The translations under genes were made by a program, and so were the position numbers. Positions 603 to 44,636 of a stretch of DNA of 64,000 bases are shown one piece after another; positions within the stretch are counted from its first letter, which is position 1; each line of letters opens with the position of its first letter. This stretch comes from a virus: the IMG/VR virus record IMGVR_UViG_3300017917_004441, positions 36,912 through 100,911 of that record, one strand, 5' to 3'. The notes under the pieces were generated by a model. It worked only from the letters and a program-made list of their open reading frames with translations, was not told the origin of the DNA and made no database searches.

Positions 603-1850
603 ATGAAGATATTTGTGCAAATTGCATCTTATAGGGATCCACAACTTATCCCAACAATCAAGAACATGTTGGAAAATGCAAAAAGACCAAAAAATTTGAG
701 AATTGGTATTGCAAGACAATTCCACCCTGAAGATAAATTTGACGATCTATCAGAATTTGAAAATGACAACAGATTCAGAATCTTAAACATTCCATATCAA
801 GAGGCTGAAGGCGTATGTTGGGCAAGAAACTTAGTTCAACAACTTTATCAGGGTGAGGAATATACACTACAGATTGATTCTCACATGAGATTTGCACCCA
901 ATTGGGATGACGAAATGATTAAGATGATCAAACAACTTCAGAAGAAAGGACATGCTAAACCATTGTTGACAGGATACGTATCATCATTTGATCCCGATAA
1001 CGACCCACAGGGTAGAGTTCAGGAACCTTGGAGAATGGTTTTTGATAGATTTATTCCCGAAGGTGCGGTGTTTTTCCTACCTGAAACTATACCTGGTTGG
1101 AGAGATATGAAACAACCTGTACCCGCGAGATTCTATTCAGCTCACTACGCTTTTACATTAGGACAGTTCTCAACAGAAGTTCAACACAATCCTGAATACT
1201 ATTTCCACGGTGAAGAAATTTCTATTTCAGCAAGAGCTTACACATGGGGATATGATTTATTTCACCCACATAAGGTTTTGATTTGGCACGAATACACTAG
1301 AAAAGGTAGAACCAAACAATGGGATGATGATAAAAAGTGGGTTGATAGAAATAACAAATCACACTTGATGAACAGAAAGTTGTTTGGTATGGATGGTTTA
1401 GAACAAGAAGGACATGATGGACTTTATGGATTTGGACCTGAAAGAACTCTACGTGACTATGAAAAGTATGCAGGTCTGTTGTTTGAAAAAAGGGCGGTAC
1501 AACAATATACCTTAGATAAGAACTATCCACCTAACCCTTACAATTACGAGAGCGAAGAAGAATGGAAAAAGAATTTTGCTTCAGTATTCAAACATTGTAT
1601 TGATATCAATTACAGTTCCGTACCTGAAAAGGATTACGAGTTTTGGGTTGTTGCATTCCACGGACCTAACGATGAAACATTGTTCAGAAAGGATGCGGAC
1701 AAGAATGAAATCCAACGTATCATGAACGATCCAGATGGGTATGGTAAAGTTTGGAGAGAATTCCAAACAGAATCTAAACCAACTTATTGGGTTGTATGGC
1801 CATACTCAACATCTAAGGGATGGTGTGAGAGAATTACAGGAAACTTATAA
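603..1850 (+). CDS. GlcNAc-transferase-like glycosyltransferase (GT60/PF11397 type)
   Basis: This 415-residue protein opens with FVQIASYRDPQLIPTI, the signature start of the UDP-GlcNAc transferase family that includes Skp1 hydroxyproline GlcNAc-transferase. A DSH triad at residues 92-94 sits where the family has its metal and nucleotide-sugar binding DxH/DxD. The rest (YFHGEEISISARAYTWGYD, then HPHKVLIWHEY) fits the acceptor side of a GT-A fold. Known relatives modify proteins, so a virion or host protein is a possible acceptor; that is inference. It is the first gene of a tight operon, with 2 bases to the next start. The start is the first ATG after the upstream terminator, with an A/T-rich leader and no Shine-Dalgarno sequence. 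Confidence 0.75.
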   Translation: MKIFVQIASYRDPQLIPTIKNMLENAKRPKNLRIGIARQFHPEDKFDDLSEFENDNRFRILNIPYQEAEGVCWARNLVQQLYQGEEYTLQIDSHMRFAPNWDDEMIKMIKQLQKKGHAKPLLTGYVSSFDPDNDPQGRVQEPWRMVFDRFIPEGAVFFLPETIPGWRDMKQPVPARFYSAHYAFTLGQFSTEVQHNPEYYFHGEEISISARAYTWGYDLFHPHKVLIWHEYTRKGRTKQWDDDKKWVDRNNKSHLMNRKLFGMDGLEQEGHDGLYGFGPERTLRDYEKYAGLLFEKRAVQQYTLDKNYPPNPYNYESEEEWKKNFASVFKHCIDINYSSVPEKDYEFWVVAFHGPNDETLFRKDADKNEIQRIMNDPDGYGKVWREFQTESKPTYWVVWPYSTSKGWCERITGNL

Positions 1851-1852
1851 AA

Positions 1853-2563
1853 ATGGTTACATTTGATGGTAAAAAAATTGCGGACATTGGTTATTTTATC
1901 AATTTGGATGAAAGAACCGATAGACGTGAAAAGTTAGAATCACAACTTACTAAATTTAACATTCAGGGTGTAGAAAGGGTCTCAGCAAATAAAACTACCG
2001 ATTCAGGACCAACAAACTGTAAAAGAAGTCACTTTGACTTGTTACAGAAATTAGTTGATTCAGAACATGAGACCTTATTGGTTTTGGAGGATGATTGTTT
2101 GTTTTTGGATTTTCTATTGGAAGAATCTGATGAAATTTTTGATAACATCAACAAAACTCAATGGGATCTATTTTGGTTGGGTTGTAGAAACAGAAGAACT
2201 CCCTTACTGAAAGAAAATAATTGTTATACGGTTTCTTCAGTTTCCCACGCACAGTCTTATTTGATCAAAAAAGATTTTGCTAAACACATCTTGGAAAGAT
2301 ATCCAATATACCCCCACGATAATCATAACAACGTTCCGATTGATGAATTGTTGACTCTGTGTGTTTATGGATACGATGTTGTTGCCAATCCAAATAGTGT
2401 GAATTTTTACAATTTAGATCAACCTTTGGATGTTCTACCAACACATTACACCGCACTTTGTTATGAGAAGTCTCTAACGACCCAATACTCCTCATATAGT
2501 AATCTTTGGCATTACGAAACCCATTGGGAGGAGTATATAATCAAATCGTTCCCTAAGTGGTAA
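1853..2563 (+). CDS. Glycosyltransferase family 25-like protein
   Basis: This 236-residue protein begins with the GT25 signature: YFINLDERTDRREKLESQL near residue 14, then an SHF motif (cf. SHL) and LLVLEDDCLF, whose EDD supplies the metal-binding acidic residues. GT25 includes bacterial LPS galactosyltransferases and animal collagen galactosyltransferases. It lies 2 bases after the GT60-like gene and 3 bases before the next, so it is co-transcribed. The acceptor cannot be told from sequence: capsule or LPS of the host, virion protein, or modified DNA bases are all possible. Confidence 0.75.
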   Translation: MVTFDGKKIADIGYFINLDERTDRREKLESQLTKFNIQGVERVSANKTTDSGPTNCKRSHFDLLQKLVDSEHETLLVLEDDCLFLDFLLEESDEIFDNINKTQWDLFWLGCRNRRTPLLKENNCYTVSSVSHAQSYLIKKDFAKHILERYPIYPHDNHNNVPIDELLTLCVYGYDVVANPNSVNFYNLDQPLDVLPTHYTALCYEKSLTTQYSSYSNLWHYETHWEEYIIKSFPKW

Positions 2564-2566
2564 AGT

Positions 2567-3304
2567 ATGAAATTAGTTAGTGTTACTTGGTCTTATGGAG
2601 ATGAATCTAATGTGAAGGATACTATCCTTTATAAAAGTTTTATCAAACACAATGATGAGAGTGATTTTGTGAATATTCACTTCAACAGATCAAAATATGC
2701 GGAATTGGAAAGTGAATTTCAATCTAAATTCGGATATCAATATGAGTTTCTATTGTATAGAATCTTTTTATTATCAGATTGGGTAAAATTGATAGATGAT
2801 GATGTTCTGATTTTTTCTGATACCACTGATGTTGTTTGTCTTGGTAAGTTGAGTGACATTGAATTTAATGGCGGTATTGTTTTCTCAGCCGAGAGACATC
2901 AATATCCAAATGACATTTCAAGTTGGGGACCAGTCAATCGTTACCCACAGGAGAATTTGGATAAGTCTAACTTCCTAAATGCGGGTCTTCAGATCTCTGA
3001 AAAAGGTTTATATTTGGAACTTCTAAGGTCTGTCATTGAGAACGTATTTCCTTTGGAATACAAAACATTTGGTGGTGATCAAGGTGTTTATATCTACTAT
3101 CTTATCAATGAAATTTCACCAAAAATTACTTTAGATATAGACCGTAAAGTGTTTGTTAGTACTTATCTAACAAGCCCTGATTGGTATAGAGTAGAGAATG
3201 AGAAATTATTATATAATCCCACAAACTCACACCCACTTTTTGTTCATGATAATGGTTGGAATTATGGAAGTCCTAAAATAATTGAGAGATATAGATTGAT
3301 ATGA
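2567..3304 (+). CDS. PLOD-like glycosyltransferase
   Basis: This 245-residue protein has features of the glycosyltransferase domain of procollagen lysyl hydroxylases and related GT-A enzymes: LIDDDVLIF as the DxD metal site, GIVFSAERHQYP, then FLNAGLQI and GGDQGVYIYYL. It is paralogous in layout to the following gene, which carries the same order of motifs. Its stop overlaps the next start (ATGA), indicating translational coupling. The sugar donor and acceptor are unknown. Confidence 0.6.
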   Translation: MKLVSVTWSYGDESNVKDTILYKSFIKHNDESDFVNIHFNRSKYAELESEFQSKFGYQYEFLLYRIFLLSDWVKLIDDDVLIFSDTTDVVCLGKLSDIEFNGGIVFSAERHQYPNDISSWGPVNRYPQENLDKSNFLNAGLQISEKGLYLELLRSVIENVFPLEYKTFGGDQGVYIYYLINEISPKITLDIDRKVFVSTYLTSPDWYRVENEKLLYNPTNSHPLFVHDNGWNYGSPKIIERYRLI

Positions 3305-4032
3305 AAAATGCTATAATTTCCACCTATTATTGTCTTGGTTGTCAAGAACCCTCAAAGGATGAATGTAGATCACGATTTGCATATGATGTTGATGATAACG
3401 ACTTCTATTTGAACTTCAGTAATGATTTCAATCCGTTTGATTTTTCCAACATATCTAATGTTGGTGTGAGTAAACGGAAGGATCTTGTATTCGGTAAGAT
3501 ATTCCGATTGAAAACTTTTATGGAAGAAAATATCTTGGGTAAGTACGATAATATTCTTCACATAGACTATTCAGATACGAAGTTTGCAAGGAGTAGTACG
3601 GAGTTGTTTGAGGACTTTATCAAGACAGGTAAAGATATTGTTATATCAACCGAAAAAAACTGTTGGCCATATCTTCACGCAGTATCAAACTGGTTTGGCA
3701 CTGAATTACCTCAGAAAGAATTTTTCTATGTAAATTCAGGAGCCGTTATATCCAAGACAGAAAAGTTTTACGAAATAATAAAAGAACTTGAATGGATATG
3801 TTTGAATTCTAACATAGACTTTTGGGACGACCAAGGTGTTTGGCAATATTACAACATAAAAGAAAATAACCTCAGTAAGGACCTCAACTCAGAATATTTC
3901 TTTTCAACCGCTGAGTTGGATGAGACTTACTATAAATTTGAAGACGGAGTTATCACTACAAAGTTCGGTACTCAACCTTACTTGATTCATGATAATTCAA
4001 GTTTTTCACTAAACCTAATAAGAAAAATTTAA
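3301..4032 (+). CDS. PLOD-like glycosyltransferase, second copy
   Basis: This 243-residue protein shares the motif order of its upstream neighbour: LHIDYSDTKF in place of the DxD segment, IVISTEKNCWPY, FFYVNSGAVIS and FWDDQGVWQYY. The PLOD-like pattern (acidic metal site, aromatic-rich middle, asparagine/glycine 'NSG' loop, DDQ) is clear. The pair probably arose by duplication and divergence. It overlaps the preceding gene by 4 bases and is followed after 1 base by the methyltransferase-like gene. Confidence 0.6.
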   Translation: MKNAIISTYYCLGCQEPSKDECRSRFAYDVDDNDFYLNFSNDFNPFDFSNISNVGVSKRKDLVFGKIFRLKTFMEENILGKYDNILHIDYSDTKFARSSTELFEDFIKTGKDIVISTEKNCWPYLHAVSNWFGTELPQKEFFYVNSGAVISKTEKFYEIIKELEWICLNSNIDFWDDQGVWQYYNIKENNLSKDLNSEYFFSTAELDETYYKFEDGVITTKFGTQPYLIHDNSSFSLNLIRKI

Positions 4033-4033
4033 G

Positions 4034-4642
4034 ATGAGTGTTTCGGGACATTTTGTTTATAAGGGATTGACTATCATGCAACATCCCAACGTAGAGAAAG
4101 CTTTTGAGGAGCTTTTGATTGATCTAAAACCAACAAAAGTGTTGGAAATCGGTACTTCATCAGGAGGACTTACCCTGATGATTAGAGACATTTTGGATAG
4201 AGTTGGTCTATCAGAAACTCGTTTGGTTACCTATGACGTGTATGAACCACAATATCTGAGATATCATGTAAATGATGGTGCAAATATTGAAATCAAAGTA
4301 GAAAACGTATTCAATCACCAATATTCTGACTTGGAGAACGGTCAAGAAATAATTGATTTCATTACTTCAGAGGGAACAACTTTGGTTTTGTGTGATGGTG
4401 GAAGTAAGAAAAACGAATTCAGAATCTTGTCCAACTTCTTGAAAGTCGGTGATGTAATTATGGCTCACGACTATTCTCCTAACGAACCATATTTTAGAGA
4501 GTTTGTTCATGACACTATTTGGAGTTGGTTGGAAATCCAAGACAGTGATATTGAAGCACCCTGTCAACTCAATAATTTGGAAGGATACTTTGAAGAAACG
4601 TTTAAGAATGTCGTATGGGCATGTAGAAAAAAAATGAAATAA
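4034..4642 (+). CDS. Class I methyltransferase-like protein (cephalosporin hydroxylase-like)
   Basis: This 202-residue protein has a Rossmann methyltransferase core: VLEIGTSSGGLTLMI (SAM-binding motif I, about residues 36-50), an acidic end of strand two near LVTYDVYEP, and LVLCDGGSKKNEF followed by VIMAHDYS. This pattern matches the CmcI/RhaM-like group often encoded beside glycosyltransferases, where members methylate sugars. It sits inside the glycosyltransferase operon, so capping or decorating the glycan is a reasonable role (inference). Confidence 0.65.
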   Translation: MSVSGHFVYKGLTIMQHPNVEKAFEELLIDLKPTKVLEIGTSSGGLTLMIRDILDRVGLSETRLVTYDVYEPQYLRYHVNDGANIEIKVENVFNHQYSDLENGQEIIDFITSEGTTLVLCDGGSKKNEFRILSNFLKVGDVIMAHDYSPNEPYFREFVHDTIWSWLEIQDSDIEAPCQLNNLEGYFEETFKNVVWACRKKMK

Positions 4643-41631: not shown

Positions 41632-42912
41632 ATGGAAGAGTTATTAGATATTATATCTAGTGATACCCGATATGTGATCAAACGTAGCGGTGATAGAGTT
41701 TTATTTGAGTCTGATAAAATCAAAAATGCGGTTATGAAAGCTATGTTCAGCGTTGGTAAAGTTGACGAAGAAATGGCTGAAAAAATTGCAAGACTTACCA
41801 AGAAAAGTCTCTACAGAGGTGATAAACTCAGAGTACCACATGTTGATGAAATCCACGATATGGTGGAAAATAAATTGATGGATAACGGTTTGAATGATGT
41901 TGCTAAGGAATACATTATCTATCGTTCAGTTCATCGTCCAAATATTTTTTCAAAACGAGTGAACTTGAAACCTTACGAGTATCCCGAGTTAGTTGAATAT
42001 GTTGACGCAATTCGTCACTCATACTGGGTTCACACCGAGTTCAACTTTACATCTGATATTCAAGATTTCAAAGTACACTTGAATGAAAAAGAGAAGTCAG
42101 CGGTTCAGAGAGCTATGTTGGCAATCTCACAGATTGAAATCGCAGTTAAAACCTTTTGGGGGGACATCTACAAAAGAATGCCCAAACCCGAAATCGGTAA
42201 TGTGGGTGCAACGTTTGCAGAGTCTGAAGTAAGACACGCAGATGCTTACTCTCACTTGATTCAATTGTTGGGACTGAATTCTGAATTTCAGAACTTGTTG
42301 GAAGTACCGGCAATTAGAAGAAGAATCAAATATTTGGAAAAAACTATTGCAAACTCTAAGACGGTAGAAAACCAAGATTACTTTGAATCAGTAGTCCTAT
42401 TCTCAATGTTTGTAGAAAACGTTTCGTTGTTCTCACAATTCTTGGTTATTATGTCCTTCAACAAACACAAGAATGTTTTGAAAGGTATTAGTAACGCTGT
42501 GGAAGCAACTTCAAAAGAAGAAAACATTCACGCAGAATTTGGATTTGATTTGGTGAATACAATCAAAAAAGAGAATCCTAATTGGTGGACACCACAGTTG
42601 GTTGAAGACATCTTAGATGCTACCATTGAAGCGTACGAAGCTGAGGCTGAGATTGTGGATTGGATCTTTGAGTTGGGTGATATGGATTTCCTTACAAAAG
42701 CTCAAACCTTGGAGTTTATTAAACACAGATTCAACCTATCATTGAATTCTATCGGTATTGAGGACGCGTTCAAAGTTGATAAGAAATTGTTGGAGACCAC
42801 CGAGTGGTTTGACGATGAAATCCTAACAACGAAACACACAGATTTCTTCAATAAGAGAAGTATCAATTACAGTAAAAAATCAAAATCAATTACGTTAAAC
42901 GACTTATTTTAA
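41632..42912 (+). CDS. nrdB: Ribonucleotide reductase small subunit with N-terminal ATP-cone
   Basis: This 426-residue class I radical subunit is preceded by an ATP-cone. Residues about 13-102 form the cone (YVIKRSGDRVLFESDKIKNA to YIIYRSVHRPN). The reductase core has the diiron ligands D145, E199, H202, a later Glu in ENVSLF, and EENIH with Glu and His. Tyr206 lies at the E-x2-H-x3-Y spacing of the E. coli radical tyrosine. ATP-cones on NrdB have been described in Flavobacteriia, where dATP oligomerises NrdB to switch the enzyme off. It is followed 17 bases later by nrdA. Confidence 0.93.
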   Translation: MEELLDIISSDTRYVIKRSGDRVLFESDKIKNAVMKAMFSVGKVDEEMAEKIARLTKKSLYRGDKLRVPHVDEIHDMVENKLMDNGLNDVAKEYIIYRSVHRPNIFSKRVNLKPYEYPELVEYVDAIRHSYWVHTEFNFTSDIQDFKVHLNEKEKSAVQRAMLAISQIEIAVKTFWGDIYKRMPKPEIGNVGATFAESEVRHADAYSHLIQLLGLNSEFQNLLEVPAIRRRIKYLEKTIANSKTVENQDYFESVVLFSMFVENVSLFSQFLVIMSFNKHKNVLKGISNAVEATSKEENIHAEFGFDLVNTIKKENPNWWTPQLVEDILDATIEAYEAEAEIVDWIFELGDMDFLTKAQTLEFIKHRFNLSLNSIGIEDAFKVDKKLLETTEWFDDEILTTKHTDFFNKRSINYSKKSKSITLNDLF

Positions 42913-42929
42913 TATATAAAAAAACAAAC

Positions 42930-44636
42930 ATGGAAAATAGAAAACCTTTTGACTGGATAAATGAGGAATCAATCACATTTCTTCGTAGAGGATATTTGAG
43001 TGAGGGTGAACAACCTTTGGAAAGAATCAAAGTCATTGCTGATCATGCAGAAAAACTATTGGGAATTGAAGGATTCGCTGATAAGTTTTACGATTATATG
43101 GGTAAAGGATGGTATTCTTTATCATCACCTGTATGGGCTAACTTTGGTAAAAAAAGAGGACTACCTGTAAGTTGTTTCGGATCAAATGTCGGAGACAATA
43201 TTGAATCAATTCTTTACACACAAGCTGAAGTAGGAGAGATGAGTAAAATGGGTGGTGGAACCTCAGGATATTTTGGTAACATCCGTGGACGTGGTGCTAA
43301 AATCACTGACAACGGACACGCACCAGGAGCGGTTCACTTTATGAACTTATTCCAAAGTGTTGTGGACAATATATCTCAAGGATCAACTCGTAGAGGTCGT
43401 TTTTCACCATATCTTCCAGTTGAACACCCTGACATCATGGAATTCTTGGAAATCGGTACAGAAGGTTTCCCAATTCAGGACCTTACACACGCTGTAACAG
43501 TTACCGATGAATTTATGAAGGAAATGATTGCAGGTGATGAGGATAAGAGAGCGGTGTGGGCAAAAGTTATTCAACGTAGAGGTGAGATCGGATATCCTTA
43601 TATCATGTTCACCGATACTATGAACAACGGAGCTCCTGAGGTATACAAGGACAAGGATATGAAAATTTACAATTCAAACCTCTGTTCTGAAATCGCTCTA
43701 CATAATTCAGAAGAAGAGTCGTTCGTTTGTGTTCTTTCATCTATGAATCTACTTCACTACGATGAGTGGAAAGACACCGATGCTGTTGAAACCATGATTT
43801 ATTTCTTGGATGCGGTTGTAACTGAATTCGTTAGTAAAATTGATGATATTCGTAACAGTGGTACCTTGGAAGGTCAAAGAGCTTTCTTCTACTTGGAAAA
43901 AGCTTACAACTTCGCTAAAAGACAAAGAGCACTTGGACTTGGAGTCTTGGGTTGGCACTCTCTATTACAATCAAAGAATTTACCTTTTGATAGTAAGGAC
44001 ACTGCAAGATTGAACGTTGAGGTATTCAAACTCATCAAAGATAAGTCATACAAAGCATCTGCAGAATTGGCGGAAATGTTTGGTGAACCCGAAACCTTGA
44101 TTGGTTACGGAAGACGTAATGTTACTTTGAATGCGATTGCACCAACAACATCTTCAGCTTTTATTTTGGGACAGGTGTCACAGTCAATTGAACCTATTTG
44201 GTCAAATGCTTATGTGAAGGACGTTGCTAAATTGAAAGTTACAATCAAGAACCCAGTCTTGAAGAAACTTTTGTCTGAGATGGGTAAAGATACCAAAGAG
44301 GTATGGGATAGTATCAAGAAATACGATGGTTCCGTACAACACTTGGAATTTTTGACTGATGAACAAAAAGACGTTTTCAGAACTTTTGCTGAAGTCAATC
44401 AATCATCAATTATCAACCAAGCGGCGGTAAGACAAGATTTTATTGATCAGTCTCAATCGTTGAACCTAATGATTTCACCTGACATGCCAACCAAGGATGT
44501 CAACAAATTGTTGATTGACGCATGGAAGTTAGGGGTAAAGACATTGTACTACCAACACTCAATGAACTCGGCACAGGCTTTCGCAAGAAAGAAATTGAAC
44601 CTAAATGACCTTGAATGCGTGGCTTGTCAGGCATAA
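42930..44636 (+). CDS. nrdA: Ribonucleotide reductase large subunit, lacking ATP-cone
   Basis: This 568-residue catalytic subunit is shorter than E. coli NrdA (761) because it has no ATP-cone; the core begins almost at once (FLRRGYLSEGEQPLERI). Key residues are present: C82 (VSCFGSN), C252 and E254 (NLCSEIAL), C267 (CVLSSMNL), the tyrosine pair near 540 (LYYQHSM), and a C-terminal CxxC (C563, C566), one step tighter than the usual Cx4C. With the upstream NrdB it makes deoxyribonucleotides for phage replication. A strong terminator follows. Confidence 0.95.
   Translation: MENRKPFDWINEESITFLRRGYLSEGEQPLERIKVIADHAEKLLGIEGFADKFYDYMGKGWYSLSSPVWANFGKKRGLPVSCFGSNVGDNIESILYTQAEVGEMSKMGGGTSGYFGNIRGRGAKITDNGHAPGAVHFMNLFQSVVDNISQGSTRRGRFSPYLPVEHPDIMEFLEIGTEGFPIQDLTHAVTVTDEFMKEMIAGDEDKRAVWAKVIQRRGEIGYPYIMFTDTMNNGAPEVYKDKDMKIYNSNLCSEIALHNSEEESFVCVLSSMNLLHYDEWKDTDAVETMIYFLDAVVTEFVSKIDDIRNSGTLEGQRAFFYLEKAYNFAKRQRALGLGVLGWHSLLQSKNLPFDSKDTARLNVEVFKLIKDKSYKASAELAEMFGEPETLIGYGRRNVTLNAIAPTTSSAFILGQVSQSIEPIWSNAYVKDVAKLKVTIKNPVLKKLLSEMGKDTKEVWDSIKKYDGSVQHLEFLTDEQKDVFRTFAEVNQSSIINQAAVRQDFIDQSQSLNLMISPDMPTKDVNKLLIDAWKLGVKTLYYQHSMNSAQAFARKKLNLNDLECVACQA

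Follow-up and report, generated by a model that had tools for sequence, protein, structure and literature searches.

ATP-cones set whether a ribonucleotide reductase (RNR) halts at high dATP, a brake whose loss might be expected in lytic viruses. In homologues of the enzyme described here, ATP-bound dimers of the NrdB subunit work and dATP-bound NrdB tetramers do not (PMC5794259, PMC8350387, PMC6187632), the published Facklamia ignava NrdB forming a beta4 on dATP (PMC6187632). Members of the class Id subclass store the radical equivalent on a Mn(III)Mn(IV) pair (PMC5794259, PMC6754362), and their signature consists of a glutamate as first metal ligand, a tryptophan, and a lysine three residues before that tryptophan (PMC6754362). 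Within the cone, Arg102 of the Leeuwenhoekiella blandensis protein (LbNrdB) is a contact residue for the gamma-phosphates of dATP (PMC5794259), and StNrdD Gln79 or E. coli NrdA His59 hydrogen-bonds the ribose 3'-OH of dATP (PMC12662201). The combination of a cone on NrdB with a cone-less NrdA is an already published arrangement, viruses included. What sets the present case apart, as judged from sequence, is an old virus-only branch of such enzymes whose ATP-cone lacks an arginine kept in the other cones compared (a lysine in one of them).

The nrdB-nrdA gene pair and its class Id assignment

The window analyzed is a 64,000-nucleotide stretch of viral DNA, corresponding to bases 36912-100911 of a 100,911-base virus record (IMGVR_UViG_3300017917_004441). 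Its + strand carries nrdB (41632..42912, +; 426 aa), encoding the class Id radical-generating subunit NrdBi and followed after 17 nt by nrdA (42930..44636, +; 568 aa), encoding the catalytic subunit NrdAi. Genes for a gp32-like single-strand binding protein, a UvsX-like recombinase, a 5'-3' exonuclease and a DnaB-type helicase lie 5' of the pair, and genes for two baseplate wedge proteins lie 3' of it. The source virus is a T4-like tailed phage, of which a DNA-level search among isolated phages retrieved no near relative. No glutaredoxin was found anywhere in the virus record, and no second ATP-cone across its whole 100,911 bases, that of NrdB being the sole one. Elsewhere in the window, positions 603-4642 hold a series of genes predicted to encode glycosyltransferases and one methyltransferase (PHROG 24687 glycosyltransferase, Glyco_transf_25, two GT_PLOD, RMNT_CmcI). 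Shine-Dalgarno-like sequences were present at 3 of 29 window gene starts, the upstream regions being A-rich like those of Bacteroidota and their phages, and the baseplate proteins gave distant matches to Flavobacterium, Microcystis and uncultured phages.

Pfam placed an ATP-cone (PF03477) at residues 14-102 of NrdB (41671..41937, +; E 3.4e-20; 72.8 bits, cut-off 25.8) ahead of a Ribonuc_red_sm domain (PF00268) at residues 109-383 (E 3.7e-58), and found only the class I all-alpha and barrel domains in NrdA. The domain layout read from the letters in the earlier note, a cone ahead of a full core on NrdB and none on NrdA, was thereby confirmed with exact coordinates. TIGR02510 'NrdE-prime' was the best NCBIfam match of NrdA, over its full length. 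The top PDB match of this subunit was 6DQX (E 5e-209), with 6DQW also retrieved, both of them alpha chains without a cone match, and no cone was present in any related NrdA examined. The top PDB sequence match of whole-length NrdB was 5OLK, LbNrdB with dATP (E 1.1e-156), which was also the first fold match of its AlphaFold2 model (mean pLDDT 82; TM 0.80/0.86); in a fold comparison with 6SF5, the NrdB core gave an rmsd of 1.2 A at 64% identity. The core and C-terminal tail (41947..42912, +) hold the metal ligands Glu169, Glu199, His202, Glu262, Glu297 and His300 and the class Id markers Lys173, Trp176 and Tyr206, all of them invariant in 71 aligned relatives. Because the class Id residues are invariant, 5OLK is the nearest structure, and NrdA is cone-less and matches TIGR02510 over its full length, the pair is assigned as a complete class Id (NrdAi/NrdBi) RNR, predicted to be of the manganese type; the likeness to L. 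blandensis drawn in the earlier note was well founded. Tyr206 occupies the position of the radical tyrosine, but in view of the Mn(III)Mn(IV) storage of this subclass the 'full radical core' of that note should not be taken to mean a tyrosyl-radical enzyme. Chance or artefact was rejected as an explanation, the cone and core matches being highly significant and recurring across no fewer than 500 related contigs of viral origin; in IMG/VR, relatives up to 96% identical are encoded by at least 501 contigs.

A virus-specific subtype of ATP-cone

The limits of the cone rest on Pfam, the AlphaFold2 model and an alignment with the cones of LbNrdB, P. aeruginosa NrdA and P. copri NrdD (PcNrdD). In the model, it comprises a hairpin with Lys17-Arg18 and helices spanning residues 27-41, 46-60, 71-84 and 88-100. 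Residues were counted over distinct NrdBs, 121 of which are viral and share the cone type of the window (W-type; 78 from the window clade, W1, 42 from a second viral clade, W2, and one from a Salicola phage), the comparison set consisting of 99 NrdB cones (81 from Flavobacteriia, four from Patescibacteria, 12 from Firmicutes phages and two from L356-type contigs). The distance from the second helix-4 tyrosine (Tyr97) to the core motif KPYEYP was 16 in all 121 W-type sequences and 20 in all 99 of the comparison set, the W-type cone-core junction (residues 98-106 of the window NrdB, RSVHRPNIF; 41923..41949, +) being four residues shorter than that of LbNrdB. Due to this shortening, the equivalent of LbNrdB Arg102 (PcNrdD Arg91), eight residues after the tyrosine, is missing: arginine occupies this position in all 99 cones of the comparison set and in none of the 121 W-type cones. 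Another 25 cones, a few of them near-duplicates and most taken from NrdD, NrdA or other proteins than NrdB, have arginine (24) or lysine (one) at the same position. Furthermore, a histidine stands in place of LbNrdB Arg98 in the window NrdB, the basic +4 position thus being gone, and the alignment revealed no conserved basic residue in the linker of W-type cones that would substitute for the missing arginine. Two separate AlphaFold2 models agree with the alignment as to the shortening of helix 4, which ends at Tyr97+3 in the window NrdB (88-100) and at Tyr+8 in the flavobacterial protein L084 (78-95). His75 of the window NrdB (codon CAC; 41854..41856, +) aligns with LbNrdB Gln72, StNrdD Gln79 and E. 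coli NrdA His59, and this position is His in 120/121 W-type sequences and, wherever readable, Gln in the other 99. The cone is a virus-specific subtype, characterized by His75 and by a shortened helix 4 and linker without the gamma-phosphate arginine.

In the window clade, Lys17-Arg18, Lys29, Tyr94 and Tyr97, site-1 residues included, are conserved. So are the cone-cone interface residues, Asp76 (Lb Asp73) being kept in 72/78 sequences, and Met83, Ile95 and Arg98 (Lb Met80, Ile92 and Arg95) being invariant. The description of the cone as 'intact' in the earlier note holds for site 1 and for the interface but not for the full set of residues of both dATP sites, with Arg102 absent, Arg98 replaced and Gln72 changed to His; the loss of nucleotide-binding residues, which that note had named as evidence against its own reading, is in this sense partial. 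Median dN/dS was 0.10 for the cone vs 0.05 for the core, with only 46 unsaturated pairs usable and dS high; the window-clade cone is under purifying selection. In most members of W2 (contigs L419, L413, L383 and others), Lys or Arg stands where the published cone-cone salt bridge has its helix-3 Asp, and the two viral clades may for that reason differ in their mode of cone docking.

Candidate modes of dATP control

Given the retained site-1 and interface residues, the purifying selection on the cone and the loss of the arginine, the cone most likely acts as a dATP switch whose second nucleotide site is altered. The RNR would most likely work like the L. blandensis enzyme, with the activity switch on NrdB. 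ATP in the cone would leave NrdB a dimer, which would form an active alpha2beta2 with NrdA; dATP, on accumulating, would bind the cone, the cones of two NrdB dimers would dock via helices 3 and 4, and the resulting beta4 would form no productive complex with NrdA, a mechanism that we infer for the phage enzyme from its homologues. Both the alignments and the models point to a poorer handling of the second nucleotide or of its gamma-phosphate. We expect a second site that is weak or missing, and a dATP inhibition that persists in changed form, probably requiring higher dATP levels. Taken in full, an L. blandensis-type switch with an altered second site, on a gene pair long inherited vertically in a viral lineage, is an explanation that we regard as reasonably probable. 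Were the missing arginine essential, the cone may sense ATP only, or never inhibit.

A cone functionally the same as that of L. blandensis, binding two dATP with a Ki in the tens of micromolar, is possible but appreciably less probable; the Ki of LbNrdB is about 20 uM. His75 and the short linker would then be neutral, and basic residues of the core domain or of the neighborhood would replace the arginine. The conservation of the site-1 residues, of both helix-4 tyrosines and of the interface is consistent with such equivalence, as is the finding that the F. ignava and L. blandensis cones, just 28% identical, both function as switches (PMC6187632). Such neutrality is, however, difficult to reconcile with an Arg present in 99/99 NrdB cones (and an Arg or Lys in 25/25 others) that is absent from 121/121 W-type cones, and with a linker offering no conserved basic replacement.

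We view with more doubt the proposal that class Id NrdB gained cones more than once, the viral lineage carrying a phage-type cone akin to those of phage NrdD and to stand-alone phage cones, not to flavobacterial NrdB cones, in which the loss of the arginine would tune the cone such that ATP activation is kept and dATP inhibition weakened. In a cone-only tree, window-type cones indeed grouped with phage NrdD and stand-alone phage cones (89/86, an unstarred branch), and a single group of all NrdB cones was rejected (p-AU 0.0095); a group of window-type and flavobacterial/Patescibacteria cones was not rejected (p 0.136), the 86 columns of this tree being too few, and repeated cone acquisition is a lead from it rather than a result. 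As a separate observation, Privateervirus phages (Proteus phage 3H10_20 and Cronobacter phage vB_CsaP_009) encode a stand-alone 98-aa ATP-cone protein (L431:2240-2536 and L472:1040-1336) annotated as ribonucleotide reductase, whose gene adjoins Dps-like and thioredoxin genes and whose product is possibly a free dATP sensor or regulator. N-terminal ATP-cones were also found ahead of a P-loop kinase-like domain in Bacteroidota proteins of 447-475 aa (L280, L440, L445) unrelated to RNR.

That the cone has lost dATP inhibition altogether, serving ATP activation or protein stabilization only and leaving the enzyme in effect feedback-free, is unlikely. Two missing basic residues, the gamma-phosphate arginine and the one at +4, would fit such a loss, as would the reversal of the interface Asp to Lys or Arg in most of the sister clade W2, and it has been argued that lytic phages gain from losing dATP feedback (PMC6370689); our literature search found no paper stating that the phage T4 RNR escapes dATP inhibition. 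The interface residues of the window clade are nevertheless conserved, with purifying selection acting at conserved nucleotide-site residues, and were feedback a mere burden, deletion of the cone, as in related phages, would be simpler.

With regard to such deletions, the statement of the earlier note that many phages lose this feedback was right in spirit, several related phage lineages being cone-less and only 77 of the 751 phage records with an NrdB match covering at least 80% of the window NrdB. Cone-less viral NrdBi were identified at L357:3001-4005, L369:535-1509, L381:3001-3969, L376:3001-3978 and L208:3001-3969, and in relatives of L208. All three trees (NrdB, NrdA and concatenated) put L357 among cone-bearing Flavobacteriia, and the NrdB tree puts L369 there too, which makes true cone losses in viral NrdBi likely. 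Isolated phages with a cone-bearing NrdBi include a Sporosarcina phage, Staphylococcus/Mammaliicoccus phages and Salicola phage SCTP-2. A widespread viral lineage whose cone is under purifying selection, yet without a near-universal phosphate-binding arginine, amounts to a natural experiment for telling apart the parts of the cone that ATP activation and dATP inhibition each require, a question tractable with two purified proteins alongside the well-characterized L. blandensis enzyme.

Ancestry of the gene pair and comparison with known systems

In a tree of the NrdB core (63 rows), the window fell in a virus-only clade of 21 representatives (93/97). The NrdA tree (53 rows) likewise gave it a virus-only clade (100/99), separate from a group (98/92) that unites Flavobacteriia with Patescibacteria and Firmicutes phages. 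The concatenated tree joined W1 to W2 (93) and the remainder together (92), the window standing beside, not inside, the Flavobacteriia group. Neither subunit thus belongs to a Flavobacteriia clade in any of the three trees. Constraining W1 to group with Flavobacteriia lowered the log-likelihood by 39 units for the concatenation (p-AU 0.035) and by 23.5 for NrdA by itself (p-AU 0.055); these p-AU values are modest, and the deep branches of the trees are moderately supported. The phylogeny that the earlier note had named as a check places this enzyme of the L. blandensis kind in virus-only clades. Identity alone was rejected as evidence of origin, because the NrdAs of Flavobacteriia and of the Sporosarcina phage are about equally identical (~65%) to that of the window. 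That both genes came recently from a flavobacterial host, in line with the Bacteroidota origin suggested in that note, is very improbable: although the nearest bacterial homologues by identity are flavobacterial (NrdB ~60%, NrdA ~65%), weak Shine-Dalgarno use fits a Bacteroidota host and the distant baseplate matches include Flavobacterium phages, the gene pair is nested in Flavobacteriia in none of the trees, the constrained grouping is disfavored, and the cone subtype is unlike all 81 distinct flavobacterial cones examined. Because of the virus-only clades and the (modest) AU values, the trees favor long vertical descent of nrdB-nrdA in a viral lineage; an ancient transfer, in either direction, may have preceded it. 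Four contigs filed as Patescibacteria (Paceibacterota; L087, L140, L143 and L284), genuine or misbinned, carry a cone-NrdBi of the Gln/long-linker type.

Among known systems, the NrdB of Salicola phage SCTP-2 shares the cone type of the window NrdB, its cone being of the His type with a short linker and lacking the +8 arginine. SCTP-2 differs in being a 440-kb Salicola phage whose NrdB is just 48.6% identical, on a long branch of unsure placement; its NrdA (L163:5300-7969; 889 aa) matches as two separate segments, as would fit an intein or another kind of insertion. Sporosarcina phage Lietuvens, the Staphylococcus Twortvirinae phages Romulus and PSU4, and Mammaliicoccus phage MSShimriz1 likewise encode a cone-NrdBi with a cone-less NrdAi downstream. 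Their cones, in contrast, have the Gln and a long linker with the arginine, and in the NrdA and concatenated trees they are nearer than the window to the flavobacterial/Patescibacteria group. F. ignava NrdB (Grx-cone-NrdBi; PMC6187632) resembles the window protein in bearing a cone on NrdBi with nrdA downstream, and differs in its glutaredoxin fusion. With the L. blandensis NrdB/NrdA (class Id, 5OLK; PMC5794259), finally, the window pair shares the domain order, the metal site, the Lys/Trp markers and the cone-less NrdA, as well as the cone hairpin, the helix-4 tyrosines and the cone-cone interface residues; it departs from that enzyme in its His75 for Gln72, in a junction four residues shorter, in the lack of an Arg102 or Arg98 equivalent, and in its place in a separate, virus-only clade.
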